The notes below the pieces were generated by a model that had not been told where the DNA came from, did no database searches, and saw only the letters and a program-made list of their open reading frames with translations. 64,000 nt of DNA from Fulvia fulva (taxonomy: Eukaryota; Ascomycota; Dothideomycetes; Mycosphaerellales; Mycosphaerellaceae): positions 3,720,001 to 3,784,000 of the forward strand of contig NC_063014.1 in NCBI RefSeq assembly GCF_020509005.1, in the 5' to 3' direction. Shown piece after piece: positions 1,706 through 52,482 of the stretch (its first letter is position 1; every line of letters begins with the position of its first letter). The position numbers were made by a program, and so were the translations under genes.

Positions 1706-1782
1706 GGTCGACGACGAGAATCACCTGTACGTGGTGTCGGCTACGAACCTCTCGTCTAGCTACGAGAGAGCCAAGTATTCTC
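1706..1782 (+). ncRNA. candidate HDV-like self-cleaving ribozyme at the LINE 5' terminus
   Basis: The first 77 nt fit the HDV-type double pseudoknot. P1: GGTCGAC (1706-1712) pairs with GTCGGCT (1736-1742), 7 bp, starting with the G1-U wobble typical of the cleavage site. P2: GAGAAT (1716-1721) with ATTCTC (1777-1782). P3: ACC (1723-1725) with GGT (1733-1735), loop TGTACGT. P1.1: GT (1727-1728) with AC (1743-1744). L3 has U at its first and G at its sixth position, as in the HDV U20-G25 pair. P4: CTCTCGT (1749-1755) with ACGAGAG (1762-1768). J4/2 reads GCCAAG with the catalytic C at 1771 in the usual C-N-A-A context. Such ribozymes are known to process the 5' ends of R2 and some other LINEs. 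Fold made by eye; activity untested. Confidence 0.82.
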
Positions 1783-2312: not shown

Positions 2313-2895
2313 TACAATGCAAGTGGATTAGTTCTGTGATCGGGGAGGATCGAGGGCAGGGTTATAAGGAACTTCATATTGGTTAGTAGGTGGAAACGCA
2401 AGGAGTACGCTGCCCGGCGTGGTGTGTGCCCCGAGCAAACCTGCGAGGCATGGACGGCCGCTTTCTAGAGATAGGCTGCGGTAACGCGAAGGGCGTCAAA
2501 ACCTGGGGCGTGGTGTACACTGGCAGCGACGGCTGACACTGTCTGTACAGCCCGAGAGGACGGATGCGCATGTCGGTCAATAGAGAGCACTAAAGGGCTT
2601 AGGCCTATGGAGGTGGATATTGGCTTAAGGAGCAAACAGGGAGGGAGGGCGTAGAGGGAAGCTTTTGCTCCGGGCTAACCTCTCGAAACGAGGCTACACG
2701 GTGGTGCTAGATGAGTGGGAAAGCGCGGTTAAGACTTGTCACCTTATCTCGTAGCTAGCTTGCTAAATACGATTCCTTCCTTGCCAGGCTACGCCCCGGG
2801 GCAAGGCAAAAGCGTTAGCCGACCATTTCTTTTCGACGCAAGTAGAGGCAGACCTTACGGACATCGACCCGAGCACATACCCGGAACCCCTGGAC

Positions 2896-4926
2896 ATGGA
2901 TTGGGCGGTTAGCCCTAACACAGTAACAGGAGTCATAAGTAAGCTAAAGGGACGAAAAGCCCCAGGCCCAGACAGGATACCAAACGTACTGCTAAAAGAG
3001 TGTAGAGAAGAGATCGCGCCGAGCCTTGCAAACCTATTTACCGCGTGCCTACGGCTAGGGTATCACCCGAAGCCGTACAGAGAGTCTATGACAGTAGTGC
3101 TACGCAAGCCACAGAAGGAAGACTATACTCAGCCCAAGTCGTACAGACCAATAGCACTTCTAAATACGATAGGGAAGGTCCTAGAAAAGATAGTAGCCCA
3201 GAGACTTACGCAGCTTGCCGAGGACAACCACGTACTCCCAGCAACACAGATGGGGGGAAGAAGCCAGCGATCGACACTAACAGCAATGGAGCTAATTACG
3301 GAGCAAATCCAGACCCTCTGGCACTACGGCAGGAACCGAGCGGCGTCCTTACTATCCCTCGACATCGCAGGGGCCTTCGACAACGTCTCACACCAAAGGC
3401 TAATACATATCCTACAGCAGAAAGGCATCCCCCAGTGGGCAACGTCGTTCGTCTTCTCCTTTCTCCAGGAACGGACGACATACCTAGTCCTAGGAAGGTA
3501 CACGTCCGACCCGGTGAAGGCAGAGACTGGAATACCTCAGGGATCTACTCTCTCCCCTATCCTGTTTCTAATATTTATGTCGGATCTAATCCCCCTACTC
3601 ACCTCTCCGCAAACCTCAGCATCGGGGTTCGTAGACGATACAAACATCCTAGCCTGGTCAGACTCGACAGAAGAGAACTGTCGCCTCCTTGAAGATAGGC
3701 ACAAGAAATGCGAGGAGTGGGCAAAGAAGCATGGTGCCCGGTTCGCCCCTGAAAAGTACCAACTTATACACTTCAGTAAAGCGAGAACACACCATAATAT
3801 GAAGGCGGCGGTAAGAATCCAAGGCTACGAGACCAAGCCATCAGCGGAGCTACGAGTACTAGGGATCTGGCTCGACCCGAAGCTAAGCTGGAATGTACAG
3901 ATTAAGAAAGCCCAGAGTCGAGCGCAAGTCAATGAAGCCTCGATAAAGAGGCTTACGGCATCTACATGGGGAGCAACATTCGACAAGGCAAGAGTAATGT
4001 ATAAGGCGATCGTCAGACCAGCTATGTTGTACGGGGCACAGATTTGGGGAACAGGAGGCGCAGGCAAGCCGATCCCGAAACGGATAGAGCAACCCCTAAA
4101 CAGGACACAGGCAGGCAACCTACGTAGGGTACTAGGCGCATACAAGACAACGTCAACAAGCACGGTAGAAATGGAGACAGGAATACCACCAATCGGCCAG
4201 TACATCCGGGGAATGAGAATTCAATACGCGGCAAAGACGACAGGTTACCTAGCACAAACCACGATCCAGGAGGCAAAGAATAAGATAGAAAGCCGCTACC
4301 GGAGAGGGGCAGGATATAGGACAAGCCAAAAAGAGGATGACCTTACGACCTTTACGGCCGTACAGACAAGCACCGAATGGCTAGCACGAAAGGAGGAGGA
4401 GCGTAGGACTCGCCAGGCCGGCGGGAGCAAGGCTAAGACCCAAAACCTAGCGGAACAGATAGCGAGCTGCCTATGGGAGCAGGACTGGAAAAGGAAGCCC
4501 CCTAAGACAACAGGCCCGATAGCGCTCCGAGCCTTCCAGAGACACAATTACCAGCTATATAGGGACCTGACAAGGGCCGAAGCAAGCATAGCGATCCAAA
4601 TCAGGTCCGAACACATTGGATTAAGGGCCTACCTGTTCAGAAGACGCGCACTAGACATCTATAGCCCAGCCTGCCAGTGTGGCTACCCATCGCAAAACCC
4701 AGAACATATGCTACTACGATGCCCGCAGTGGGCGAGAGGCAGGGGAAATTGGAGGCACCAAGCGGGAAGGAGAGACTACAAGTCAATTATTAGGGACAAA
4801 GGCAACATTCGCCGAATCTCTCGGTGGATACTACAGCAGGGATACCTCCAGCAGTTTAGCCTCGCGAGCGAGACGGAGGAGTGGATAGACAAGAGGCGGA
4901 AGCGAGGGGGGTTGCAGATAGGGTAG
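2896..4926 (+). CDS. LINE A ORF2 fragment: reverse transcriptase with C-terminal CCHC box, endonuclease lost
   Basis: A 676-codon ORF for a non-LTR reverse transcriptase that copies LINE RNA at a nicked target. In order: fingers motif KAPGPDRIPN (about residues 21-30), YRPIALLNTIGK, motif A SLDIAGAFDNVSH with catalytic Asp156, motif B GIPQGSTLSPILF, motif C FVDDTNILAW with Asp247 and Asp248, LRVLGIWLD, thumb region VRPAMLYGAQIW, then a basic C-terminal region ending in C593-x-C595-x8-H604-x4-C609, the CCHC box usual in LINEs. No APE endonuclease precedes it and no RNase H triad is evident. The first ATG is used as start; the frame is open upstream to about 2765 without an ATG and reads like the normal ORF2 linker, so this start is a by-product of the internal deletion. 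The right copy encodes the same protein. Confidence 0.93.
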   Translation: MDWAVSPNTVTGVISKLKGRKAPGPDRIPNVLLKECREEIAPSLANLFTACLRLGYHPKPYRESMTVVLRKPQKEDYTQPKSYRPIALLNTIGKVLEKIVAQRLTQLAEDNHVLPATQMGGRSQRSTLTAMELITEQIQTLWHYGRNRAASLLSLDIAGAFDNVSHQRLIHILQQKGIPQWATSFVFSFLQERTTYLVLGRYTSDPVKAETGIPQGSTLSPILFLIFMSDLIPLLTSPQTSASGFVDDTNILAWSDSTEENCRLLEDRHKKCEEWAKKHGARFAPEKYQLIHFSKARTHHNMKAAVRIQGYETKPSAELRVLGIWLDPKLSWNVQIKKAQSRAQVNEASIKRLTASTWGATFDKARVMYKAIVRPAMLYGAQIWGTGGAGKPIPKRIEQPLNRTQAGNLRRVLGAYKTTSTSTVEMETGIPPIGQYIRGMRIQYAAKTTGYLAQTTIQEAKNKIESRYRRGAGYRTSQKEDDLTTFTAVQTSTEWLARKEEERRTRQAGGSKAKTQNLAEQIASCLWEQDWKRKPPKTTGPIALRAFQRHNYQLYRDLTRAEASIAIQIRSEHIGLRAYLFRRRALDIYSPACQCGYPSQNPEHMLLRCPQWARGRGNWRHQAGRRDYKSIIRDKGNIRRISRWILQQGYLQQFSLASETEEWIDKRRKRGGLQIG

Positions 4927-5119
4927 TCATCAGGGCAGGCCCATGACACTAGCGTACCCCTAACAAGGGAAATTTAAGACGACAACGAGGAGGAAAAGAC
5001 AGGCGGGAAGGAGGAGGGGTTTTCACCAACACGGTTTCCCCTCTATATATACAAAAACAAGATAGCATAGCTGCATAGGCCAAAGGGCACTACAACAGCT
5101 TAATGAAATATCTATCTAT
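4927..5119 (+). other. LINE A 3' UTR and ATCT-repeat tail
   Basis: After the stop codon lie about 170 bp and then the tail (ATCT)n. The block GGGTTTTCACC followed by a CGG...TTTCCC segment recurs in the LINE B 3' end (about 39030-39065), although the rest of the 3' UTRs differ. A short tandem repeat instead of poly(A) is typical for several non-LTR clades. The shared block is a candidate recognition site for the reverse transcriptase. Confidence 0.75.
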
Positions 5120-6015
5120 CTATATATACTATCGTACGCCTCGTACTTACTCTAGCTATTAGATATAGGTTGCTATTCGTCTTTAAAGAAGGTATACGTT
5201 ACTTAGCTCTCGGGCTTAGTACGCTAGCGTATTACTTATATCGATAAAGTAGAGTTCCTACGCGCCTTCTAGGTAGCCTATAACGCTATATTTAGATAGG
5301 AGAACATCCTATCGAGCTTTAGAGGCGCTAGTTCAGTTCTATTTAATCTATAGGTAGTAATAGACAAGCTTAATATTAAGCTACGTATACTAACCCCTCT
5401 AGCTCCGGACTCTACCCCTTAGGAGTCGAAGACACTATAAAATATAAAAGAATTCGACTCTTAATTAATACTAGTAACGAACAAAATGCGTGCCCGGGTA
5501 GGTTTATCGCTAGACTCGTTATAGGAAGGGGTATATTAGCTTATAAAAGGGATTAGAGAGATAGCGTATTAGATAGCTCTTATACGAAGCGAGATTAGTA
5601 AGCTACGTAAGTCTTACGAGGCCCTTATATAGCGGAAAGTACGAAAGCGTAAGTTTATTTAGTCTAGAGGGTCTCTAACCTTCGATAAGGCGTCGTAATT
5701 AATACCTCTAGAGGATACTAGGAGGTAAGAAGTAAGTAGAGAGTCGCTAGATAGTGTTTAGCTAGTACTAAGGCTACGACGCTATAAGCGATATAGCGAG
5801 TTAGGGTATAACGTACGTACCTATTAAGTAGACTTACTAGATAGCGAAGAATCTAAAGAGGAATTGTCCTCCTAGTAACGATTCTATAGGATATTGTGGT
5901 ATTAAGATACCGTCGTAATTAAAGTAGAAGTAGTATAGTTCTTAGTAAAAGTAGCCCGCTCGGTAGTAGAGCCCGCTCGATAGTAAAGTACGTTAGCCTC
6001 TTTAAGAGTAATACT
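5120..6015 (+). pseudogene. pogo/Fot1-type transposase, C-terminal part (RIP-decayed), left copy
   Basis: Continues the frame broken at 1705: YASYLLQLLDIGCYSSLKKAYVTQL, corresponding to the PLDVGCF-type segment with the third catalytic Asp, then LRAFQVAYNAIF and ENILSSFRGASSVLFN, which match the end of the DDE domain of Fot1-like transposases. A low-complexity C-terminal region rich in Arg, Lys and Ser follows, with IRSEISKLRKSYEAL near 5590. Several RIP-type stops interrupt it. The Copia element is inserted at 6016, and about 50 bp of flank follow at 11630. Original length and terminal inverted repeats cannot be fixed. The same fragment is present in the right arm at 48277-49172. Confidence 0.8.
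6011..6015. repeat. ATACT target-site duplication of the left Copia (pairs with 11630-11634)
   Basis: ATACT stands immediately before TGTTAAGATG of the 5' LTR and again immediately after TTTAACA of the 3' LTR. Five-bp duplications are normal for Copia integrases. Confidence 0.95.
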
Positions 6016-6698: not shown

Positions 6699-7733
6699 AT
6701 GGATCTATACCAAGAGAAGACAGAGGAGAAGGGAGGCAAAATCCCAATTCTTGGGAGGGACAATTGGAAGAGATGGTTCAACCTTCAGAGATACAAGATG
6801 GAGAGCTAATCAGCATTCTTTGCAATTGATGACCTAATGGAAGTGTCTTTTGACAACATCAAGGGCAAGACTCTGAAACTCCAAGAAGAGGCTACAACTA
6901 AAGAGATCCTCAATACGCCAACATGGACAAGGCACAATGCAGTATGCAACTTCAGTATCCTTAGTAGGATCACAGAAGAAGATGAATTTGAGCTTGAGGG
7001 CTCATGTGAATCTGGAAGAGCTGCTGAGAAGTGGGTGTATCTCTGGAACAAGTATAGCCAGGTGCTACCAACCCATACACATGAGCTCACAAAGCAATTT
7101 GTGACCTTTGAGATGAGTGAAGAGTTCACCATCAGATCTGCATGGACACACCTGGTTTCTCTTGGAAAAAGGATTGCTGATGTTGACCCAGAGGGTCAGC
7201 ATTACAGGAAAGCTGATGTGAGGATGACCCAGCTCTTAAGCTCGCTGCCACCTGACTACCATGTAGCCAGGGATACTATAATGGCTCAGCCAAAGATGGA
7301 TCATGAAAGGACCTTAAAGATCCTTGAAGCTCAAGAAGCCAGGTTGGATCCCTCTAAGGCTGAGTATGGCATGGCAGCCACCTGGGTCAAGCCCTCAGGT
7401 CTAGCAAGACCACTCTCCTGCCTTCTCTGTGAGAAGGATCATCTGATCAAGGACTGCCCTAGTTTGCCTGAGGCAAGAAAGGTCCTTAGATCTCATTCCC
7501 AACCACCATCTTCCCAGAATACAACACATGTCAAGAAGAAGAGAACTCCACCACCCACTTCAAGGAGGACACCAAGAGAGAAGTCCTCTATAGAAGAACT
7601 TAAGAAAATGGTGAAGAAACTCAGCTCTGACATGCTGTCACTCCAGAAGAACCAGGCCCAGTCTTATACCTCTAAAGCAAAGAAGACTGAGAAGGTTTCT
7701 CCGCCCAAGAGTCACCATGCAGCTCATCCCTAG
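6699..7733 (+). pseudogene. Copia gag (one in-frame stop)
   Basis: Gag of a Copia element, which would form the particle packaging the element RNA. The frame starts at ATG 6699 (MDLYQEKTEEKGGKI) and runs to TAG 7731-7733, 344 codons, with one TAA at 6807-6809 (codon 37), best explained as CAA mutated by RIP. The open part from the next ATG (6837) is 298 codons. The WKRWFNLQRYKM segment and the helical region after it match copia-type Gag; near the C-terminus a zinc knuckle CLLCEKDHLIKDC (residues 241-253) is followed by a basic Pro/Ser/Lys tail. The knuckle is C-x2-C-x3-H-x4-C, one residue shorter than the usual CCHC box. pol begins 5 nt after the gag stop in another frame. Confidence 0.9.
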
Positions 7734-7738
7734 AGACA

Positions 7739-10700
7739 ATGTCTGATGATGATGAGTATGATGAAGTGGCTCACTCAACTGCAGAAGTCCAAGGCAAGTT
7801 CCCCTCGTCAGAGTGGTTACTTGACTCCTGTGCTTCATCCCATATGACTGACCAAAGCTGCCTCTTTAGATCTATGACTCCCTTGACAAGGAAGAAATGG
7901 ATCAAAGTGGGAGGTGGGTTTTTATTGGCCACTCATATTGGGAATGCAGAGATGAGTGGGAGAGCTGGCAGAAAAGTTGTTTTGGAAGATGTCCTGCTTG
8001 TACCCAAGCTAGGAGTGAACCTGGTTTCATGGAACCAGTTTAGCAAGCAGTTTGGTGTGCAACCTCCATCATTTTCTCTTGTTTCCCCCTCTGGTGAGAC
8101 TGTTGTCCAGACAAAGCTCCTTGGGGGGGTTCCATTCATTGATGAGATTTCTCCTCTCCTACAAGAACGGGCACATTACTCATCATGTGCACCACCAATG
8201 GAGAATGCCTTTGTGACTGCTCAATCAGAGACCGACCTGAAGCAGTGGGAGCTTTGGCATAGAAGATTTGCACACTTTGGGAAGAATTTGCTCCAGAATC
8301 TTCACAAGGTAACAGACTTGAAAGAACCCATTCCTATCCCTAAGGATGGCTTTCACCAGTGCAGAGTATGCTCAATAGCAAAGATGAAGAAGTACAAAGG
8401 CAAAGTTACAGAGAGAAGACCTGAAAGACTTGCCCTTGTATCTATTGACATATGTGGCCCACTACCAATCTCAAGACTAGGATTCAAATACTGGCTTGAG
8501 ATTGTTGACAACTTCTCTAGGAAGAAGTGGACCTTTCCTCTTAGGAAAAGAGAAGATGCTCCAGTTGCTCTCCAGAACTGGAAGATCAAAGCAGAGAGGA
8601 AATCATCAGCGCAGCTGAAAGCAGTAAGACTTGACAATGCAAAAGAACTTATTGCATTAGTGAAGCAGTGGGAGAAGGATTTGGGGATTGGGCTCGAGCC
8701 GACTGAGGCATACAACTCTCTACAGAATGGACCAGTTGAGAGGTCAATACAAACCTCAGAGGACTCTATAAGGGCAATGCTTGAAGAGGCTAAAATGCCG
8801 GTTGAATTTTGGCCTGAAGCACTAGAGGCCCAAACTTATATGAGGAACAAACTGCCAAATGGCCCAGATTACGATAGGTTCAAGGTTTCACCAGATGAGG
8901 CTTTTGATGGTATCAAACCGACCATCAACCATTTGAAAGTTTGGGGATGCAAAGCTGTTGTCTATATGGACACAAGATCCCAACCTCAATAGGCAAGAAG
9001 TGACAAGCTAATGAATAGGGGTAAAGAAGCAGTGTTTATTGGGTATGTTGAAAACACAGCTAAAGCCTGGCTCTTTTGGGAACCAGACATGAGAGCTGTT
9101 AAACAACACACACATGCAGACTTCTTTGAGGACCAGCCTGGAGGTGATATAGGTCTCAATGTTCCAACATTGAATCTACTAAGCAGTGCACCAGCTAGGA
9201 AGCCCTTAGGAAGGCCGAGGAAGAACGTATCCTTAGGACAATCTACCTACCATTCAGGCGTCCATCAGAGCCCCCCCGAAATAGATCAGCCAATTGAGAG
9301 CCCTAAAGTCGCTCAGCCGAGAAAGCTGTTTGTGCAACTTCCCCAGCCTCCGGAGAACGTAGGGGAATTTCAGAAAATCGATCAGCCAATTGAGAGAAGC
9401 TCCCTAGATCCCCAGGAAATAGACGTTACTAGGTCACAAGTGACGGTCCCTAAATCATCCCTTAGAAAGAGAAAGGCTGACTATGATGTTGAGGGCTATG
9501 ACATGAAACAGAAAGCCCCAAAATCCATGGTCCCTAAGCCCGAACTAACCACTGAAGTGGGAGAAGCAATGGACCTCTCAGAGAACCTTGCTGCTTTTCA
9601 CCAAGCTTTCTTTGTAGCCATGCAATCAGTGGACAGTTCAATACCATGGGATAGCGAATTCCTGGAAGAAGTTGAGGAAATGGCCTTTGCAGCAACTGTA
9701 GAAGCCATTGCATACAAGCAAGAGGTCCCAATTCCAAAATCCTACAAGGATGCTGTGAATGACAAGAAATGGGGACATCTTTGGAAGGAAGCAGTCCAAA
9801 AGGAACTAGATGCTCTACAGAGTAACAACACCTGGGAAAATTCTGTTCCACCAAAAGGAGCAAATCTGGTTACATCAAGATGGGTCTTTGATATTAAGAG
9901 AAGCATTAGTGGAGCTATTGAAAAGTTCAAGGCTAGACTAGTTGCAAGGGGCTTCTCACAGAAGTTTGGTGTTGACTTTATGGAGACATTTGCACCTACA
10001 GTAAGACAGGACACCCTTAGGGTGTTTATGGCTATTGTGTGTAAGAAGGATCTTCATCTTCACCAAGTGGATGTGAACAATGCATTCACAGAAAGCACCC
10101 TCCATGAAGACATCTTCATGTTACCACCACCAGGAGTTGAGCTTCCACCAAACATGGTGTTCAAAATCCTCAAAAGCTTGTATAGACTTAAGCAAGCAGC
10201 TAGAGATTGGAATCAACTCTGTGTGTCAAAGCTCAGAGAGATTGGATTCACACAGTCAGAAGTGGACCCATGCCTACTTATCTATAAGAAGAGGGAGATC
10301 ATAATCCTTATACATGTGGATGACATTCCAATTGCTGCACCAAAGTTGACAGATGTTCTCTGGTTCAAAAGAGAACTTGGCAAGATCTTCAAGATCAAAG
10401 ATCTAGGTGAACCTGAAAAGATCCTTGGCATGAGAGTCACAAGGGACAGGAAGAGAGGAATCCTGAAACTTGACCAAGGACACTTTGTTAGGGACAGCCT
10501 AGCCAAGATGGGAATGAACCATGAGAAGGCAGCACCTACACACTCACCCATGGACAGCTATGAGGCCCTCAAACCTTCAAGCCACATGGATGAGAGGTGT
10601 GACAAGGCAGAGTACCAGAGTATTAATGGTACTTGGATGTGGCCAGCAACAATCACAAGGCCAGACATTGCTTTTGCCCTAGGAAGGATGAGCTCATTTG

Positions 10701-11299
10701 TGAGTGACCCATCCACCTACCACATGAAGGCTTTGAAGAAGATCACTAGGTACCTAAGATCATACCCTGATCTAGGACTTCAGTTCTCAAAGTCTGGAAA
10801 AGGACACCTTATTGGATACTGTGATTCTGATTATGCAATGGACAAAGCAGACAGAGTCTCAATCCTTAGGTATGTCTTCTTCCTCTGTGGGGCACCAGTT
10901 TCTTGGATGAGCAAGAAGCAAAAGTCTGTAGCAACATCCATAATGGAGGCTGAATACATGGCCATGAATGCATGTGCGAAGCAGTCCCAATTCCTAGCTT
11001 CACTGCTAAGGGAAATGGATTGTCCAGAGTTAGTGGGAGACTGTTCCCATCAACCAAGAATCACTGGAAACCAGGAGACTGTATCAAATTTGAGACCAGT
11101 CCAATTAAGAGGTGACAATCAAGCTGCCCTCACCCTAGTGAAAGATGCACATGTTCATGACAAGTCGAAGCACATTGACATTGCCTATAACGCTGTTAGG
11201 AAACTTTGGTGGAGGAGGCTTATTGCTGTTGAGTACACCCCAACCTCTGAGATAGTTGCAGACGGGTTTACAAAACCAAAGACTGGTCCACACTTCTAG
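7739..11299 (+). pseudogene. Copia pol: protease, integrase, reverse transcriptase, RNase H (one in-frame stop)
   Basis: A 1187-codon frame broken by one TAG at 8990-8992 (codon 418), in the conserved stretch joining integrase to the GYV motif; CAG to TAG by RIP would explain it. Domain order is that of Copia. Protease: LLDSCASS with Asp29. Pre-integrase: LWHRRFAHFGKN, then CRVCSIAK. Integrase: Asp237 (SIDICGP), Asp299 (RLDNAKE), Glu334 (NGPVERS), a DD35E spacing. Pro-rich linker about 470-580. RT: RWVFDIK, Asp778 in VDVNNAF, HVDDI with Asp861-862. RNase H: GYCDSDYA, MEAEYMA, LRGDNQAAL, and SKHIDIAYN. The ATG at 7739 may not be used in life, since Copia pol is normally made as a Gag-Pol fusion; the phase relative to gag would need a -1 frameshift, or one indel occurred. 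Confidence 0.93.
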
Positions 11300-15151: not shown

Positions 15152-18068
15152 ATAGATAGATAGATTTGTCATTCCCCTGTTCTAGGACCCTATCCAGCCT
15201 ATACAGGTGTATATCTATTGTTATATATAACGGGAAACCCGAATAGGTGAAAACCCTTCCCGCCCCCGACTACTCCTTATCTAGATTAGCTTTCCCTCTG
15301 AACGTACGTAGTCTATGTCACTACCCCGTTAGCCCCCGCTCCTAGCCGGTCTCGTCGCGCTACGTCGTGTCCTCTCTTCCTACACTACTCCTACTAGACG
15401 GTACTGTTCTAGCTAGCCCTTCTCTAGTATCTAGTTCGTAATACGCCATAGGTCCTTAGCGTTATTAAGAAGTGCCCTAATCGTCCGGTTCCTCGCCTTT
15501 GCTATCCACTCCCCCCTTCCTAGCGATCACCTCGGACAGACGAGGAGTGCGTGCCGTACGTTCTAGGAGCGATAGCCGTAGGGGTAGCTAGTATTCGTGT
15601 ATCCTAGAACCTTCCTCTATAATAGGTACCCCTAGAGGCCGATGTGTTCGCTTCGTAGTTAGGTTGCTATACTACTCTATACCCTCGTAAGGCGGTAGTA
15701 GATAAACTTCGGGGGGTGCTTAACCGCGGATTTTGTAGCTAACTATTCCTTAGGTTGTCCCGCTAGCTAAGGGCGTCCACTATGCCCTATAACCTAGTTG
15801 TTCTACCTCTCTTTCTATAGTTGCTCTATAAACGATTTCTTACCTTCCTATTATATTACTAGCTATTCGTCCCTTACCCGGTAGTTCGGCTCGTTTCCGG
15901 GTCGAATGCCCTTATACGCTAGTACTAATTCGCGGGCCCTTACGACTGTACTAGCGATAACCTTCTATACTAGGTACTGTGCCGACTTGCCTAAGTAGGA
16001 GGTCCGTAGTCCCTAGATGTATAGGTCGATCGGCGGTATAGCGGTCTCGTGCTTAAGCATCCTCGTTAGTATCGACTTATATGCCCCGGTGACCTTCCTT
16101 AGGCATTGGTTTTGAATCTTTACTAGCGGCGCGACGAGTCCCTTCGATAGGCAGGCCCTCTCGCCTAAGGACCACACTTGGCTGCTATAGGTAAGGACTG
16201 GCCGTATAATAGCCGTATATAGAAGTCGTGACTACCGGAAGTCCGCCCCCTATATAGACGTAGTGAGCCTCTGGCATAATGCTATATTCTGTTTAGCTTT
16301 CCGTAATATTGCCTATACGTACTTCCTCTACCGTAGCGCCGGGTCTACCTATAGTCCGAGGATCCTAAGCTGATTTGCCGGGTTAGTCGTATACCCCTAT
16401 ATCTAGATAGAAGCTTGTATATTGTAGAACCGTAGCCGGCGCGTAAAGTGTATCAGATTGTACTTTTCTGGGGCAAACCGAGCCCCGTGCCTCCTAGCCC
16501 AGTCCTCGCAGATCTTGTGCTTCTCTTCTAGTAGCCTACAGTTCTCCTCAGTCGAGGAAGACCACGCTAGGATGTTTGTGTCGTCTACGAAGCCGCTCGC
16601 AGCGGTGTTCTGGGATTCTAGGGCTGGGAGCAGCGTCGCCATAAAGAAGAGGAACAGAATAGGTGCTAGCGTTAAGCCTTACGGAATTCTAGTATAGACT
16701 ACTTGAAATAGGCTTCTGTACTAGCCGACTAGGATCGACGTACTACGGTTTTAGAGGTAGGACCGTACGAAGTTAACAAGCTATATAGGGAGTCCTTTCG
16801 ACCTTAGGATATAGAGTAGCCGCGGGTATGACACGTAGTCGAAGGCTCCTAATATGTCTAGGCTAAGTAAGGAAGCCACCTTGTCCCTATTCTTATACTA
16901 GATAGCCTTTACCTAAGAGGTGATAAGTTCTATCGCGGATAGCGTCGATCGCTATAGGCGCGCACCTATCTAGGTGTCCGGGAGTAGGGATAAGGAAGGA
17001 ATCGTATTTAGTAAGCTAGCTACGAGATAAGGTAACAAGTCTTAACCGCGCTTTCCTACTTATCTAGTACTACCGTATAGCCTCGTTTCGAGAGGTTAGC
17101 CCGGAGCAAAAGCTTCCCTCTACGCCCTCCCTCCCTATTTGCTCCTTAAGCCAATATCCACCTCTATAGGCCTGAGCCCTTTAGTGCTCTCTATTGACCG
17201 ACATGCGTATCCGTCCTCTCGGGCTATATAGACAGTGTTAGCCGTCGCTACTAGTGTACACTACGCCCTAGGTTTTGACGCCCTTCGCGTTACCGTAGCC
17301 TATCTCTAGAAAGCGGCCGTCTATACCTCGTAGGTTTGCTCGGGGCATACACTACGCCGGGTAGCGTACTCCTTACGTTTCTACCTACTAACTAATATAA
17401 AGTTCCTTATTACCCTACCCTCGATCCTCCCCGATTATAGAACTAATCTACTTGTATTATACGTCTTTTCCCCGTCCTAATAGCCGTCTTTTCCTTGCTT
17501 AGGCTATCGTCTTTTCCTCGTCGTAATCTACTATATCAGACTAGGTACGTTATGTAGCGGGATAGGTAGTGCCTTAGGCAAAACCCTCGTTCCTATACCG
17601 GGTATTTAATAGGCCCTTATAGGCTTCGTCGCGTGTCTACCTACCCACCGTATTGCCCGCTAGTAAACACTAGATTGTTTCGTAGTCCGCTCGACGCCGG
17701 TATATAGTCCGCTTAGTTGTTGTTCTGTAGTCCGCTCGTCTAATATTCGTCGCTTAGCCCGCTCGGTTTACGGTCTCCGGAGGTAAAAATTCTACACTTA
17801 TACTAGTGGTGTCCTATCGAGCGTATAGGCCACGGTTCCGCGCCCTTCTTATACGTAGAAAGAAGAGGGACTCGCTCCCGACACGAGTATACGCTCGTCG
17901 GATAGTTTTTATACCCGTTTTGCTAGTAGTCCTCTATTCGCCGCGGCTTCGCCTACGTTACGCGCCCGTCGCGCCTACGACGCTCTAGCGTAAGAATACT
18001 TAGCTCTCTCGTAGCTAGACGAGAGGTTCGTAGCCGACACTACGTATAGGTGATTCTCGTCGTCGACC
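15152..18068 (-). mobile_element. LINE B, internally deleted RIP-decayed copy with complete 5' end
   Basis: From the ATCT-type tail at 15152 upward on the minus strand come a LINE B 3' UTR, the C-terminal part of ORF2, and RT sequence to 16990. There the ORF2 stops inside the RT fingers region and the sequence jumps to the leader (17005-18068) at its ORF1-proximal end. So ORF1, endonuclease and part of RT are missing. A 79-codon frame at 16403-16642 keeps FVDDTNILAW and GARFAPEKY. The 3' part (15152 to about 16400) is identical in mirror image to 37.9-39.14 kb; 16400-16990 is homologous but differs at many RIP sites and is less mutated here than in the right arm. The 5' flank (18069 on) has no copy of the sequence next to the tail, so this is a rearranged junction, not a simple insertion. 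Confidence 0.83.
17992..18068 (-). ncRNA. RIP-damaged copy of the 5' HDV-like ribozyme
   Basis: Counterpart of 1706-1782 with four substitutions, all RIP-type. P1 and P4 are untouched. One change breaks the P3 closing pair next to the loop (G to A at the place of 1733), one breaks P1.1 (G to A at the place of 1727), one turns a P2 G-C into G-U, and J4/2 becomes GCTAAG, which is still a permitted form. I would expect it to be crippled. It marks the exact 5' end of the leader. Confidence 0.72.
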
Positions 18069-32200: not shown

Positions 32201-34253
32201 TCGATCGTGCCTTAGAGTCCCCCTCTCTTCTAGGTGCCCAGGTCCTTCGGGGTATTAAGGGCAATTACGTTACTCGCTATTAAGTCGAGTACTTCGTCGG
32301 CTATAGGGTGCGGCTATATAAGGCTTTCCTAGGAAGGGTAGTGTATGTCGAAGTCTCCTACTACGATGTGGTACCCTTGTCTCTTAAGCGCACTGTCTAG
32401 GTGTCTATAGACCCCTAGGTCGCGGCTAGACCTCGAGGCTAGCGGTTGTATATATAGGTTGTGTATCTAGGTGCTACCTACGTAGAGGGAGGTAATATCG
32501 CCCCCGCCTTCTTCGTCTACGTAGTATACTACCTCCCAGTCGGATTCTAGTATGTCCTTACTAATATAGAAGTACGTGCGGGGTCTACCGTCGCCTCGTA
32601 GGCATGTCGTATAGCCTAGTGACTTGTAGGTCGTTGGTCTCTTATAGTACGGGTTAATCTATAGCTCCTAGATTATAAGGACGTAGTGGACGCGCGGGTC
32701 CGCCTCGTGTAGGAAATAGTTCTAGACTATATCCTTACTATAGTTAACGTTATACTAGATGATGCTAAGCGTGTCGAGGCTAGTTATCGGTATCGACAAT
32801 CATTTCCTCTATATCGTCCTATGTCCTACTGCCCTATACGTCCTAGTCTACGCCTATCGGCTGTGTACTAAAGGGGAGCCGGGCCTAGTTAGATTCCCTC
32901 GCCGTAGCTAGTAGAGCACGTGGCCTCCCGTACGCCCTAGGTTACGTATCCTTTACATCGTTCTCGGCCCTAGGGCGCTTATGCCCGACCGCCGCTAGTT
33001 AGTTCCGGTGTAGGCTAGCCTTACGGTCGCCGTAGAATCTTAGGGCGACGGTTCTGTTTATAATTGCCTTGTTTTTCGCTAGTTTCCGCTATAGGCATTC
33101 CGCACTATACGATAGGTAGTGCCCCGGACAGTTCGCGTACCGTCTCGTAGTCGATATACAGTCCCTAGATATATAGTCTCCTATATAGTTCGAGTAGGCC
33201 TACTTATTTATACACGTGTAGGTTTGGTGTCTATACTGTTAGTATTTAAAGCATTAGAGGACACGAAAGGATAAGGAGTACTTTTCTACTGTCTTAAGGC
33301 TATATTGCTAGACTAGGCCTTGTTCTATCGCTAGATCCGCCGCTTTTACGTCTTGTAGCTATACTATTAGCGCCGAGGCCTTCTTGCCTTCTGGCCATTT
33401 CCTATAGAGCCAAGTCGCCTTCTGGATTAGAGAGTTAAGAGTGACCGGGTTGTCCTCTTAGAGAGCGCGTAGGTGACCCTAGTTAGTTAGGTCAAACTCC
33501 TTAGGTATGTCGTGGACTAGGATCGTGAATTGTTTCGTTAAGACCTTCGCTAATGCCGTAACCTTAGATACCTACTGTGGCTATACCTCTAGGTGCCTCC
33601 TAGCAGTAGTAGAGCTAGTATAGATCTATAGAGTGCCGTTAGACTATTAGTTCACTACGACCACCCCTAGTTAGTTAATTCGTTAGGCGAGCTCCTTGTT
33701 CGATAGCTTCGTAACTTCGGCCTAGTCTTCCTTTACTATAATGCGGATCGTAACTATATCGTACGTTAGGCGGGGGCCTAGTATCGATGCCGCGACCGAT
33801 GCCTAGCTATAGGGGTGTTGATTCCGGGTGGCCTTACTAATCGCCTAGGACGTCGTCCTCATTTCTTATTGCCCTCGGTAATACGATAGTATAAGCGCCG
33901 TACGTAGCTAAGTGATCATTACCTATAGAGACCGGTAAGGGAGCTGATCGTTAGTTTCTATACTTTTTACGTCCTCTATAAGTTGCTACTAGTTGTCTTA
34001 GGGGGGCTTCGCCTATAGGGCCGTAGGCGCCGTTAGTGCCGTAGCCTAGTAAGGAAGGAATCGTATTTAGTAAGCTAGCTACGAGATAATGTAATAAGTC
34101 TTAACCGCGCTTTCCTACTTATCTAGTACTACCGTATAGCCTCGTTTCGAGAGGTTAGCCCGGAGCAAAAGCTTCCTTCTACGCCCTCCCTCCCTATTTG
34201 CTCCTTAAGCTAATATCCACCTCTATAGGCCTAAGCCCTTGAGTGCTCTCTAT
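29299..34253 (-). mobile_element. LINE B, near full-length, RIP-decayed (left partner of the head-to-head pair)
   Basis: Minus strand: 5' leader fragment (34253 to about 34055), ORF1 (about 34040-32800), ORF2 with endonuclease (about 32760-32040), RT (about 31420-30450) and C-terminal region, 3' UTR and tail at 29299. It is colinear without indels with 34254-39140 (paired coordinates sum to 68439) but differs at scattered RIP sites. A 69-codon open frame at 31505-31714 is antisense to ORF2 and I consider it chance. Neither end shows a target duplication with its neighbour, because the gypsy D segment between the two insertion points is gone. Confidence 0.85.
34186..34253. other. 68-bp asymmetric spacer at the centre of the LINE B palindrome
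   Basis: The left copy keeps 68 bp more leader than the right one. The leader of the left copy ends at GTGCTCTCTATA (34253) and the right copy starts GCGTAGAAGG (34254). The two copies are thus fused leader to leader. Confidence 0.85.
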
Positions 34254-34394
34254 AGCGTAGAAGGAAGCTTTTGCTCCGGGCTAACCTCTCGAAACGAGGC
34301 TATACGGTAGTACTAGATAAGTAGGAAAGCGCGGTTAAGACTTATTACATTATCTCGTAGCTAGCTTACTAAATACGATTCCTTCCTTACTAGG

Positions 34395-35640
34395 CTACGG
34401 CACTAACGGCGCCTACGGCCCTATAGGCGAAGCCCCCCTAAGACAACTAGTAGCAACTTATAGAGGACGTAAAAAGTATAGAAACTAACGATCAGCTCCC
34501 TTACCGGTCTCTATAGGTAATGATCACTTAGCTACGTACGGCGCTTATACTATCGTATTACCGAGGGCAATAAGAAATGAGGACGACGTCCTAGGCGATT
34601 AGTAAGGCCACCCGGAATCAACACCCCTATAGCTAGGCATCGGTCGCGGCATCGATACTAGGCCCCCGCCTAACGTACGATATAGTTACGATCCGCATTA
34701 TAGTAAAGGAAGACTAGGCCGAAGTTACGAAGCTATCGAACAAGGAGCTCGCCTAACGAATTAACTAACTAGGGGTGGTCGTAGTGAACTAATAGTCTAA
34801 CGGCACTCTATAGATCTATACTAGCTCTACTACTGCTAGGAGGCACCTAGAGGTATAGCCACAGTAGGTATCTAAGGTTACGGCATTAGCGAAGGTCTTA
34901 ACGAAACAATTCACGATCCTAGTCCACGACATACCTAAGGAGTTTGACCTAACTAACTAGGGTCACCTACGCGCTCTCTAAGAGGACAACCCGGTCACTC
35001 TTAACTCTCTAATCCAGAAGGCGACTTGGCTCTATAGGAAATGGCCAGAAGGCAAGAAGGCCTCGGCGCTAATAGTATAGCTACAAGACGTAAAAGCGGC
35101 GGATCTAGCGATAGAACAAGGCCTAGTCTAGCAATATAGCCTTAAGACAGTAGAAAAGTACTCCTTATCCTTTCGTGTCCTCTAATGCTTTAAATACTAA
35201 CAGTATAGACACCAAACCTACACGTGTATAAATAAGTAGGCCTACTCGAACTATATAGGAGACTATATATCTAGGGACTGTATATCGACTACGAGACGGT
35301 ACGCGAACTGTCCGGGGCACTACCTATCGTATAGTGCGGAATGCCTATAGCGGAAACTAGCGAAAAACAAGGCAATTATAAACAGAACCGTCGCCCTAAG
35401 ATTCTACGGCGACCGTAAGGCTAGCCTACACCGGAACTAACTAGCGGCGGTCGGGCATAAGCGCCCTAGGGCCGAGAACGATGTAAAGGATACGTAACCT
35501 AGGGCGTACGGGAGGCCACGTGCTCTACTAGCTACGGCGAGGGAATCTAACTAGGCCCGGCTCCCCTTTAGTACACAGCCGATAGGCGTAGACTAGGACG
35601 TATAGGGCAGTAGGACATAGGACGATATAGAGGAAATGAT
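34395..35640 (+). pseudogene. LINE B ORF1 (RNA-binding Gag-like protein), RIP-decayed
   Basis: The frame begins near GCACTAACGGCGCC, just after the leader. Basic and Ala/Thr-rich sequence is followed by a central region with MRTTS-like stretches, and by a cluster of zinc-knuckle relics at about 35170-35350: one in a CFKYQQYRHQTYTC context and another reading CPGHYLSYSAEC. This is typical of Tad1/I-like LINE ORF1 proteins, which bind element RNA. Several Cys codons have become Tyr, and TAG/TAA stops are frequent. The start codon is not certain. Confidence 0.65.
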
Positions 35641-51396: not shown

Positions 51397-52405
51397 GTCC
51401 AGGGCAAGGAAGGAATCGTATTTAGCAAGCTAGCTACGAGATAAGGTGACAAGTCTTAACCGCGCTTTCCCACTCATCTAGCACCACCGTGTAGCCTCGT
51501 TTCGAGAGGTTAGCCCGGAGCAAAAGCTTCCCTCTACGCCCTCCCTCCCTGTTTGCTCCTTAAGCCAACATCCACCTCCATAGGCCTGAGCCCTTTAGTG
51601 CTCTCTATTGACCGACATGCGCATCCGTCCTCTCGGGCTGTACAGACAGTGTCAGCCGTCGCTGCCAGTGTACACCACGCCCCAGGTTTTGACGCCCTTC
51701 GCGTTACCGCAGCCTATCTCTAGAAAGCGGCCGTCCATGCCTCGCAGGTCTGCTCGGGGCACACACCACGCCTGGCAGCGTACTCCTTGCGTTTCCACCT
51801 ACTAACCAATATGAAGTTCCTTATCACCCTGCCCTCGATCCTCCCCGATCACAGAACTAATCCACTTGCATTGTACGTCTTTTCCCCGTCCTAACAGCCG
51901 TCTTTTCCTTGCTCAGGCTATCGTCTTTTCCTCGTCGCAATCTACCATGTCAGACTAGGTGCGTTGTGTAGCGGGACAGGCAGTGCCTCAGGCAAAACCC
52001 TCGTTCCCACACCGGGTGTTCAACAGGCCCTTACAGGCTTCGTCGCGTGTCCACCTACCCACCGCATTGCCCGCTGGCAAACACCAGATTGTTTCGTAGT
52101 CCGCTCGACGCCGTTGCATAGTCCGCTCAGTTGTTGTTCTGTAGTCCGCTCGTCCAATGTTCGTCGCTTAGCCCGCTCGGTTTGCGGTCTCCGGAGGTGA
52201 AAATTCTGCACTCATACCAGAGGTGTCCTGTCGAGCGTATAGGCCACGGTTCCGCGCCCTTCTTACACGTAGAAAGAAGAGGGACTCGCTCCCGACACGA
52301 GTACACGCTCGTCGGATGGTTTTCATACCCGTTTTGCTGGTAGTCCTCTGTTCGCCGCGGCTTCGCCTACGCTACGCGCCCGTCGCGCCCACGACGCTCC
52401 AGCGT

Positions 52406-52482
52406 GAGAATACTTGGCTCTCTCGTAGCTAGACGAGAGGTTCGTAGCCGACACCACGTACAGGTGATTCTCGTCGTCGACC
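52406..52482 (-). ncRNA. candidate HDV-like ribozyme, right LINE A
   Basis: Identical in sequence to 1706-1782, with all helices P1, P2, P3, P1.1 and P4 and the J4/2 GCCAAG preserved. The first ribozyme nucleotide is at the point where LINE and gypsy F sequence meet. Confidence 0.8.

Follow-up and report, generated by a model that had tools for sequence, protein, structure and literature searches.

The window analysed here is a 64,000-nt stretch of the Fulvia fulva genome (assembly GCF_020509005.1, contig NC_063014.1, positions 3,720,001 to 3,784,000, forward strand). On its plus strand, two exact copies of a 14-bp target-site duplication, CTATATATACTATC, at 1692-1705 and 5120-5133, enclose an inserted element that consists of two parts. 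The upstream part, at 1706-2784, is a non-coding, WEIRD-like module, with a length of 1,078 nt if it ends at G2783 and of 1,079 nt if it ends at C2784, whose first 77 nt (1706-1782) constitute a candidate HDV-like ribozyme with a predicted cleavage site before G1706. The downstream part, at 2785-5119, is a 5'-truncated LINE fragment, which lacks the first 404 residues of a 1,118-aa ORF2 and retains the last 714, with the reverse transcriptase domain at approximately 3115-3867 and the end of the ORF at 4926. Two further copies of the module lie on the minus strand of the window: one at 51403-52482, with a perfect ribozyme and another junction with the same LINE, and one at 16992-18068, which is 92% identical, carries RIP-type mutations and is fused to another LINE; for neither did a simple search reveal a target duplication. 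In addition, three consecutive ORFs at 6810-11299 read like the gag, integrase and reverse transcriptase of a Copia-type LTR element.

An earlier note on this DNA had described a full set of HDV parts, in the right order and connectivity, at 1706-1782, and each pair that it named is indeed a standard one. P1 is formed by 1706-1712 and 1736-1742, with seven standard pairs out of seven, two of them G-U (G1706-U1742 and U1708-G1740), while all six nucleotides of 1716-1721 pair with 1777-1782 in P2. The segment CACCUGUACGUGGU (1722-1735) comprises an extra C at 1722, located between P2 and P3, the three pairs of P3 (ACC/GGU, 1723-1725 with 1733-1735) and the 7-nt loop L3 (UGUACGU, 1726-1732). Together with the 3' strand of P1, the dinucleotide AC completes the segment 1736-1744 and supplies the partners of L3 for the two pairs of P1.1, G1727-C1744 and U1728-A1743. 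A 7-bp P4 hairpin (1749-1768, with 1749-1755 paired to 1762-1768), which is also present in the nested minimum free energy fold, is followed by J4/2 (AGCCAAGU, 1769-1776) and by the 3' strand of P2 at 1777-1782. P1, P2, P3 and P1.1, with P4 in addition, thus stand in the order of the nested double pseudoknot. The letters that the note had assigned to the active site, namely a U and a G at positions 1 and 6 of L3 and a C in J4/2, are found at U1726, G1731 and C1771; we take these to fill the corresponding HDV roles, with C1771 as the presumed catalytic nucleotide. The predicted cleavage point likewise falls, as had been claimed, at the first transposon nucleotide past the target duplication, in that G1706 adjoins the repeat ending at 1705. 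The site directly 5' of P1 is therefore the end of the element, the sequence common to the copies starting at the first nucleotide of P1.

The earlier note had proposed a covariance and descriptor search as a check on this fold. When the first 100 nt were dinucleotide-shuffled 30,615 times, a generic HDV descriptor, which was written with the candidate already in view, never matched at nucleotide 1 and matched at any position in four shuffles. With matches whose P1 begins GGTCGAC left out as copies of the same ribozyme, a scan of 719,010 strand-positions from the window and the fetched loci gave no other compact match; one loose match, with a span of 294 nt and a P4 of 4 bp, occurs on the minus strand of the window. 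An Rfam search of the entire window returned nothing that reached a gathering score. When 1690-1900 was searched with E up to 10, the sole match among 4,227 families was RF02682, an HDV ribozyme family, in an alignment that starts at 1706 and covers the full family length. Its score of 13.1 bits does not reach the gathering score of 44. The E of 3.6 is for the library as a whole, and dividing it down to the single family gives about 0.0009; once 1,111 bases were searched, RF02682 dropped off the list. According to the accessible text of PMC5640933, most representatives of the HDV class were detected through structure and not through sequence.

The nested minimum free energy fold retains P2 and P4, P1 and P3 being displaced by other small hairpins, and has a z-score of -0.15. 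As isolated capped hairpins, P1 and P3, calculated at -9.3 and -1.7, nevertheless come out stronger than the main competitor, at -5.5, in a rough estimate that leaves pseudoknot costs outside the calculation.

Comparison of the window ribozyme with RF02682 (HDV-F-prausnitzii, bacterial going by its name), made through the consensus in the Rfam search alignment, shows that the core CACCUGUACGUGGU is equal at 13 of 14 bases. The single change, a G for C at position 2 of L3, is offset by a reciprocal change in the P1.1 nucleotide with which it pairs. Common to both are P3, the length of L3 and six of its seven letters, including U1 and G6, the extra C, and GCNAAG in J4/2, whereas the letters differ in P1, P2, P4 and one P1.1 pair; in P1 and P2, the pairing is kept despite the changed letters. 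The identity of the P3/L3 core is informative because the descriptor did not demand those letters. On these grounds, 1706-1782 is a candidate HDV-like self-cleaving ribozyme, a designation against which must be set an Rfam score far below gathering and a nested fold that disfavours P1 and P3.

The ends of the module were read in 45 copies, made up of 40 perfect copies among the matches listed and five others, namely L010, L011 and the three window copies that start at 1706 and, on the minus strand, at 52482 and 18068. Since 40 of the 45 had been chosen for a perfect 77-mer, the test on the 5' side is the difference between the flanks. The shared G is preceded by 44 distinct 12-mers, and the last flank base before it is A in 18 copies, T in 16, C in 7 and G in 4. 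The only repeat among the flanks concerns L001 and L073, which have the same 12 upstream bases on different contigs and at different LINE junctions, perhaps through insertion into the same repeat. With the geometry of the fold, the start of the RF02682 alignment at 1706 and these differing flanks, the claim of an HDV-like fold at the exact 5' end of an element holds.

The 3' end, which had no part in the choice of copies, is identical in 45 of 45, and reads CCTTCCTT followed by G, or by A in the RIP-mutated copy starting at 18068. As the next base is C in 41 copies and T in four, C may be the last base of the module RNA and provide a single base of microhomology. On contig C1, among the matches listed, the 3' end lies at an offset of exactly 1,059 for 49 of the 52 5' ends; of the other three, two have it at 1,054 and 1,058, respectively, and the third lacks a 3' end. 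End words insensitive to RIP count 452 5' ends and 550 3' ends in the genome, in which the 77-mer ribozyme occurs 131 times in perfect form. A group of three module copies at C1 8,826,063-8,836,478, spaced by about 4.67 kb, was considered as a ribozyme multimer and rejected, as their identical 35-nt upstream flanks indicate a local segmental (tandem) duplication that includes the flank. Two adjacent head-to-head pieces in the window, at 34043-34253 on the minus strand and 34255-34396 on the plus strand, correspond to query nt 875-1085 and 944-1085 at about 92% identity; they contain the 3' end of the module and the beginning of a LINE junction of the window type, and the pair looks like an inverted, 5'-truncated insertion.

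Inside the module, there are two short arrays with unrelated motifs and a period of about 23 nt, four copies of GAGCGGRCTA at 2010-2097 (spacing 22-27 nt) and three of GGAAAAGACG at 2257-2312 (spacing 23 nt), which are possible protein-binding sites. Furthermore, 1756-1767, which overlaps P4, is complementary over 12 nt to 2747-2758 near the 3' end of the module, and this is the only inverted repeat of at least 12 nt among the matches listed in the module. When the last 100 nt were shuffled 2,000 times, complementarity of this length never arose; with the whole rest shuffled, it arose in 2 of 300 trials. Pairing between the arms, the upstream one of which lies in P4 and L4, would abolish P4, and may serve to turn the ribozyme off after synthesis of the full RNA.

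Downstream of the module, the sequence is very different from copy to copy, and the 45 copies have 33 distinct junctions. The partner is recognisable as a LINE in 40 of them, and at least three families are represented, among others the 1,118-aa ORF2 family, the partner of L002 and one closest to P0001; the partners of L075, L078, L095, L100 and L101, each judged from 47 nt only, have no LINE assignment. The module at 1706-2783/2784 is therefore separate from the LINE, as follows from its constant 3' end, the number of distinct junctions and the several LINE families. On the 1,118-aa LINE, the junctions range from upstream of ORF2 to well within it, and that of L006 falls near the end of the ORF2 of its partner. 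On this LINE, 13 distinct switch sites were mapped, and C precedes the switch at all 13, against a background of 25% C in the L012 locus; nine of these sites have CC and four GCC, to be compared with the GCC*A/U of Magnaporthe.

The 1,118-aa LINE family seems to have been active recently, since 25 of the 27 loci L012-L038 have no stop in the matched part and 24 of the 27 have the 1,118-aa open frame, beside mutated copies with many stops. The partner of L002 shares 99% identity over 133 aa with a reverse transcriptase of Stemphylium lycopersici, hinting, as one of two readings, at movement of a LINE between species. The RVT_1 families L039-L072, with ORFs of 1179-1275 aa, were considered as further LINEs and rejected, as they carry gag-like and protease-like ORFs and are, by this reading of the ORFs, of Ty3 type with LTRs. 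The HDV descriptor had no match in the four upstream slices of L069-L072, and a scan of viral contigs for LINE relatives gave no confirmed match.

Variation among the copies is dominated by RIP. On C1, 17 further copies keep the first 20 nt and all differ from the perfect 77-mer: G-to-A changes affect both L3 (at P1.1) and P3 in 14, L3 only in one, P3 only in one and neither in one, and most other changes in older copies are also of RIP type. These changes lead us to infer that ribozyme function has been lost from most old copies, the 131 perfect ones being young. The genome copies display no covariation, being too alike, and most variants are of RIP type or within the P4 loop; two single changes, found in copies that RIP had already mutated, each disrupt a P2 pair. 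Five older C1 copies (L137, L139, L140, L146 and L147) have TA in place of AG in the P4 loop; one of the two base changes is not RIP-type, and the shared difference suggests an older source lineage with a change in an unpaired loop.

There are several source haplotypes, each found at several junctions. The window copy and L011 have the same junction and a private variant at nt 574, present in two of the 14 full-length module copies compared, and their flanks differ; this pattern suggests that a finished chimera was re-copied with its exact 5' end intact. In the pairs L001/L007 and L010/L011, the junction is shared and the module haplotypes are different, a pattern consistent with hot spots at which switching recurs, such as have been reported for Magnaporthe.

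The observations that have to be explained are thus the constant ends of the module, its fusion to several 5'-truncated LINEs at many points, and the target duplication around the window copy. The explanation that we favour, at a probability of about three in four, is a WEIRD-type RNA that has its 5' end defined by an HDV-like ribozyme and propagates by serving LINEs as a template-switch partner. In a longer transcript, the first 77 nt would fold into the double pseudoknot, and the RNA would cleave itself before G1706 with the participation of C1771 and the U-G pair of L3, leaving a 5'-OH. A LINE reverse transcriptase engaged in copying LINE RNA would halt after a C and jump to the 3' end of the module RNA, where a single G of the cDNA would probably pair with a terminal C. 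The module RNA would then be copied as far as the 5' end made by the ribozyme, and the chimera inserted. Chimeras that come to lie in transcribed DNA would release the same exact 5' end again for re-copying, and read-through transcripts would in this manner give both free RNA and new chimeric copies their exact start back. Nuclear copies, chimeras included, are the likeliest templates for transcription of the source RNA, because the nuclear assembly contains no head-to-tail junction and the module has no unusually stable fold. If correct, this mechanism would account for the exact length of WEIRD-type RNA, which would be uncapped and self-trimmed, and whose new copies would regain their start wherever they landed. 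The copies also provide dozens of natural junctions for studying how LINE reverse transcriptases jump between RNAs.

The earlier note had regarded the ribozyme as the 5' end of the LINE itself, and the arrangement in the window, where it adjoins the target duplication with the LINE downstream of the module, agrees with that view. However, the module has its own exact 3' end and 33 junctions with at least three LINE families, and its junctions with the 1,118-aa LINE extend from upstream of ORF2 to well inside it, that of L006 being near the end of ORF2, all of which makes a native LINE end very improbable indeed. A different objection is that the 5' end might be the transcription start of an internal promoter, with the HDV-like fold a coincidence or an inactive relic. 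Promoters, too, can yield exact 5' ends, and both the preference of nested folding for another hairpin and the Rfam score under gathering speak for this reading. Yet the absence of the descriptor at nucleotide 1 of any shuffle argues against it, as does the near-identity of the P3/L3 core to RF02682 in letters that the descriptor left free, with the compensated P1.1 pair. Moreover, simple patterns for the Pol III A and B boxes found neither box in the module, a result that bears on Pol III and not on a Pol II promoter; we regard the promoter reading as improbable.

The source could also be an extrachromosomal self-cleaving RNA (a satellite, a viroid-like circle or an RNA akin to the VS plasmid) that is nuclear only in the form of copies captured by LINEs, and in which a single ribozyme, acting on a multimer, would generate the two exact ends. 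An exact 3' end without poly(A), together with the lack of a recognised solo copy, makes such a source possible, and the exact 5' end, the unit length, the 12-nt complementarity that joins both ends and the occurrence of several source haplotypes, each at several junctions, also speak for it. No solo source locus was recognised among the 45 copies read out of roughly 550, five of those 45 having unassigned partners, nor is any reported for Magnaporthe in the accessible text of PMC2104539. Against this stands the folding energy of the module (L011), which at -372.7 is weaker than the mean of 60 shuffles (-386.8, standard deviation 9.1) and hence shows no unusual stability. End-to-start junctions with a gap of 0-30 gave 0 matches in 67 Mb of the nuclear assembly, a result expected under this and the other readings alike; with no circular junction and a weak fold, a viroid-like or retrozyme circular RNA is not supported in nuclear DNA. 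There is also no opposite-strand ribozyme in the Rfam list, which is a weak test, as the HDV-like one is unlisted there too. An extrachromosomal source as such is therefore unlikely, and we consider quite unlikely the fuller proposal that fungal WEIRD-type RNAs are self-cleaving satellites, in which one ribozyme would make both ends from an extranuclear multimer or circle, the 12-nt pairing would dismantle P4 and so shut the ribozyme off, and entry into chromosomes would occur solely as the acceptor of LINE template switches.

The preferred reading, a ribozyme-trimmed RNA that serves as template-switch partner, has its closest structural counterpart in the MINE chimeras and WEIRD RNA of Magnaporthe grisea, which were reportedly described by Fudal et al. 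in 2005. As far as the accessible text of PMC2104539 (Gogvadze et al. 2007) shows, MINE consists of a full-length, 1,113-nt non-coding WEIRD fused to a 5'-truncated MGL LINE, is attributed to template switching during LINE reverse transcription, and has the switch-site consensus GCC*A/U; WEIRD is described there as an abundant RNA of unknown function for which no gene was found. Marks of such chimeras that recur here are a full-length non-coding 5' part with constant ends, a 5'-truncated LINE as 3' part with a variable junction, and a flanking target duplication, of 14 bp at the window copy. Common to both systems are thus a non-coding RNA of about 1.1 kb with a full 5' end, truncated LINE fragments joined at many points, target duplications, a C before the LINE switch as a trend, and the lack of any observed solo copy. 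Unlike in Magnaporthe, several LINE families serve as partners here, and module ends number in the hundreds. The likeness is one of architecture. The word "ribozyme" has no occurrence in the accessible part of PMC2104539, and no literature joining WEIRD or MINE with a ribozyme was found in a search that lay outside most subscription journals.

HDV ribozymes themselves are known from fungi: 230 variants in 26 fungal species were reported by Li and Breaker in 2017 (PMC5640933). The remark in the earlier note that no description was known for a Tad1-like fungal LINE therefore needs qualification, although "retrotransposon" and "transposon" do not occur in the main text of that paper, as far as it was accessible. 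The fungal variants and the window ribozyme have in common the double pseudoknot and the extra C between P2 and P3. They differ at the cleavage pair, which is C-G in the consensus of the variants and G-U in the window, and in P4, which contains a loop E in the variants and is a plain 7-bp helix without one here. Among retroelements, R2 and the L1Tc/ingi elements of trypanosomatids have been described as carrying HDV-like ribozymes at their 5' ends (PMC3774820 and PMC4035085, in their accessible parts). As in the present case, the ribozyme there stands at the 5' end of a non-LTR element, in Drosophila R2 at the exact junction; in R2 and L1Tc/ingi, however, it is the element's own, whereas here its carrier is a separate RNA, attached to the LINE through template switching. 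If the proposed mechanism is correct, HDV-like ribozymes would thereby gain a further retroelement setting, that of the template-switch partner and not of the LINE.
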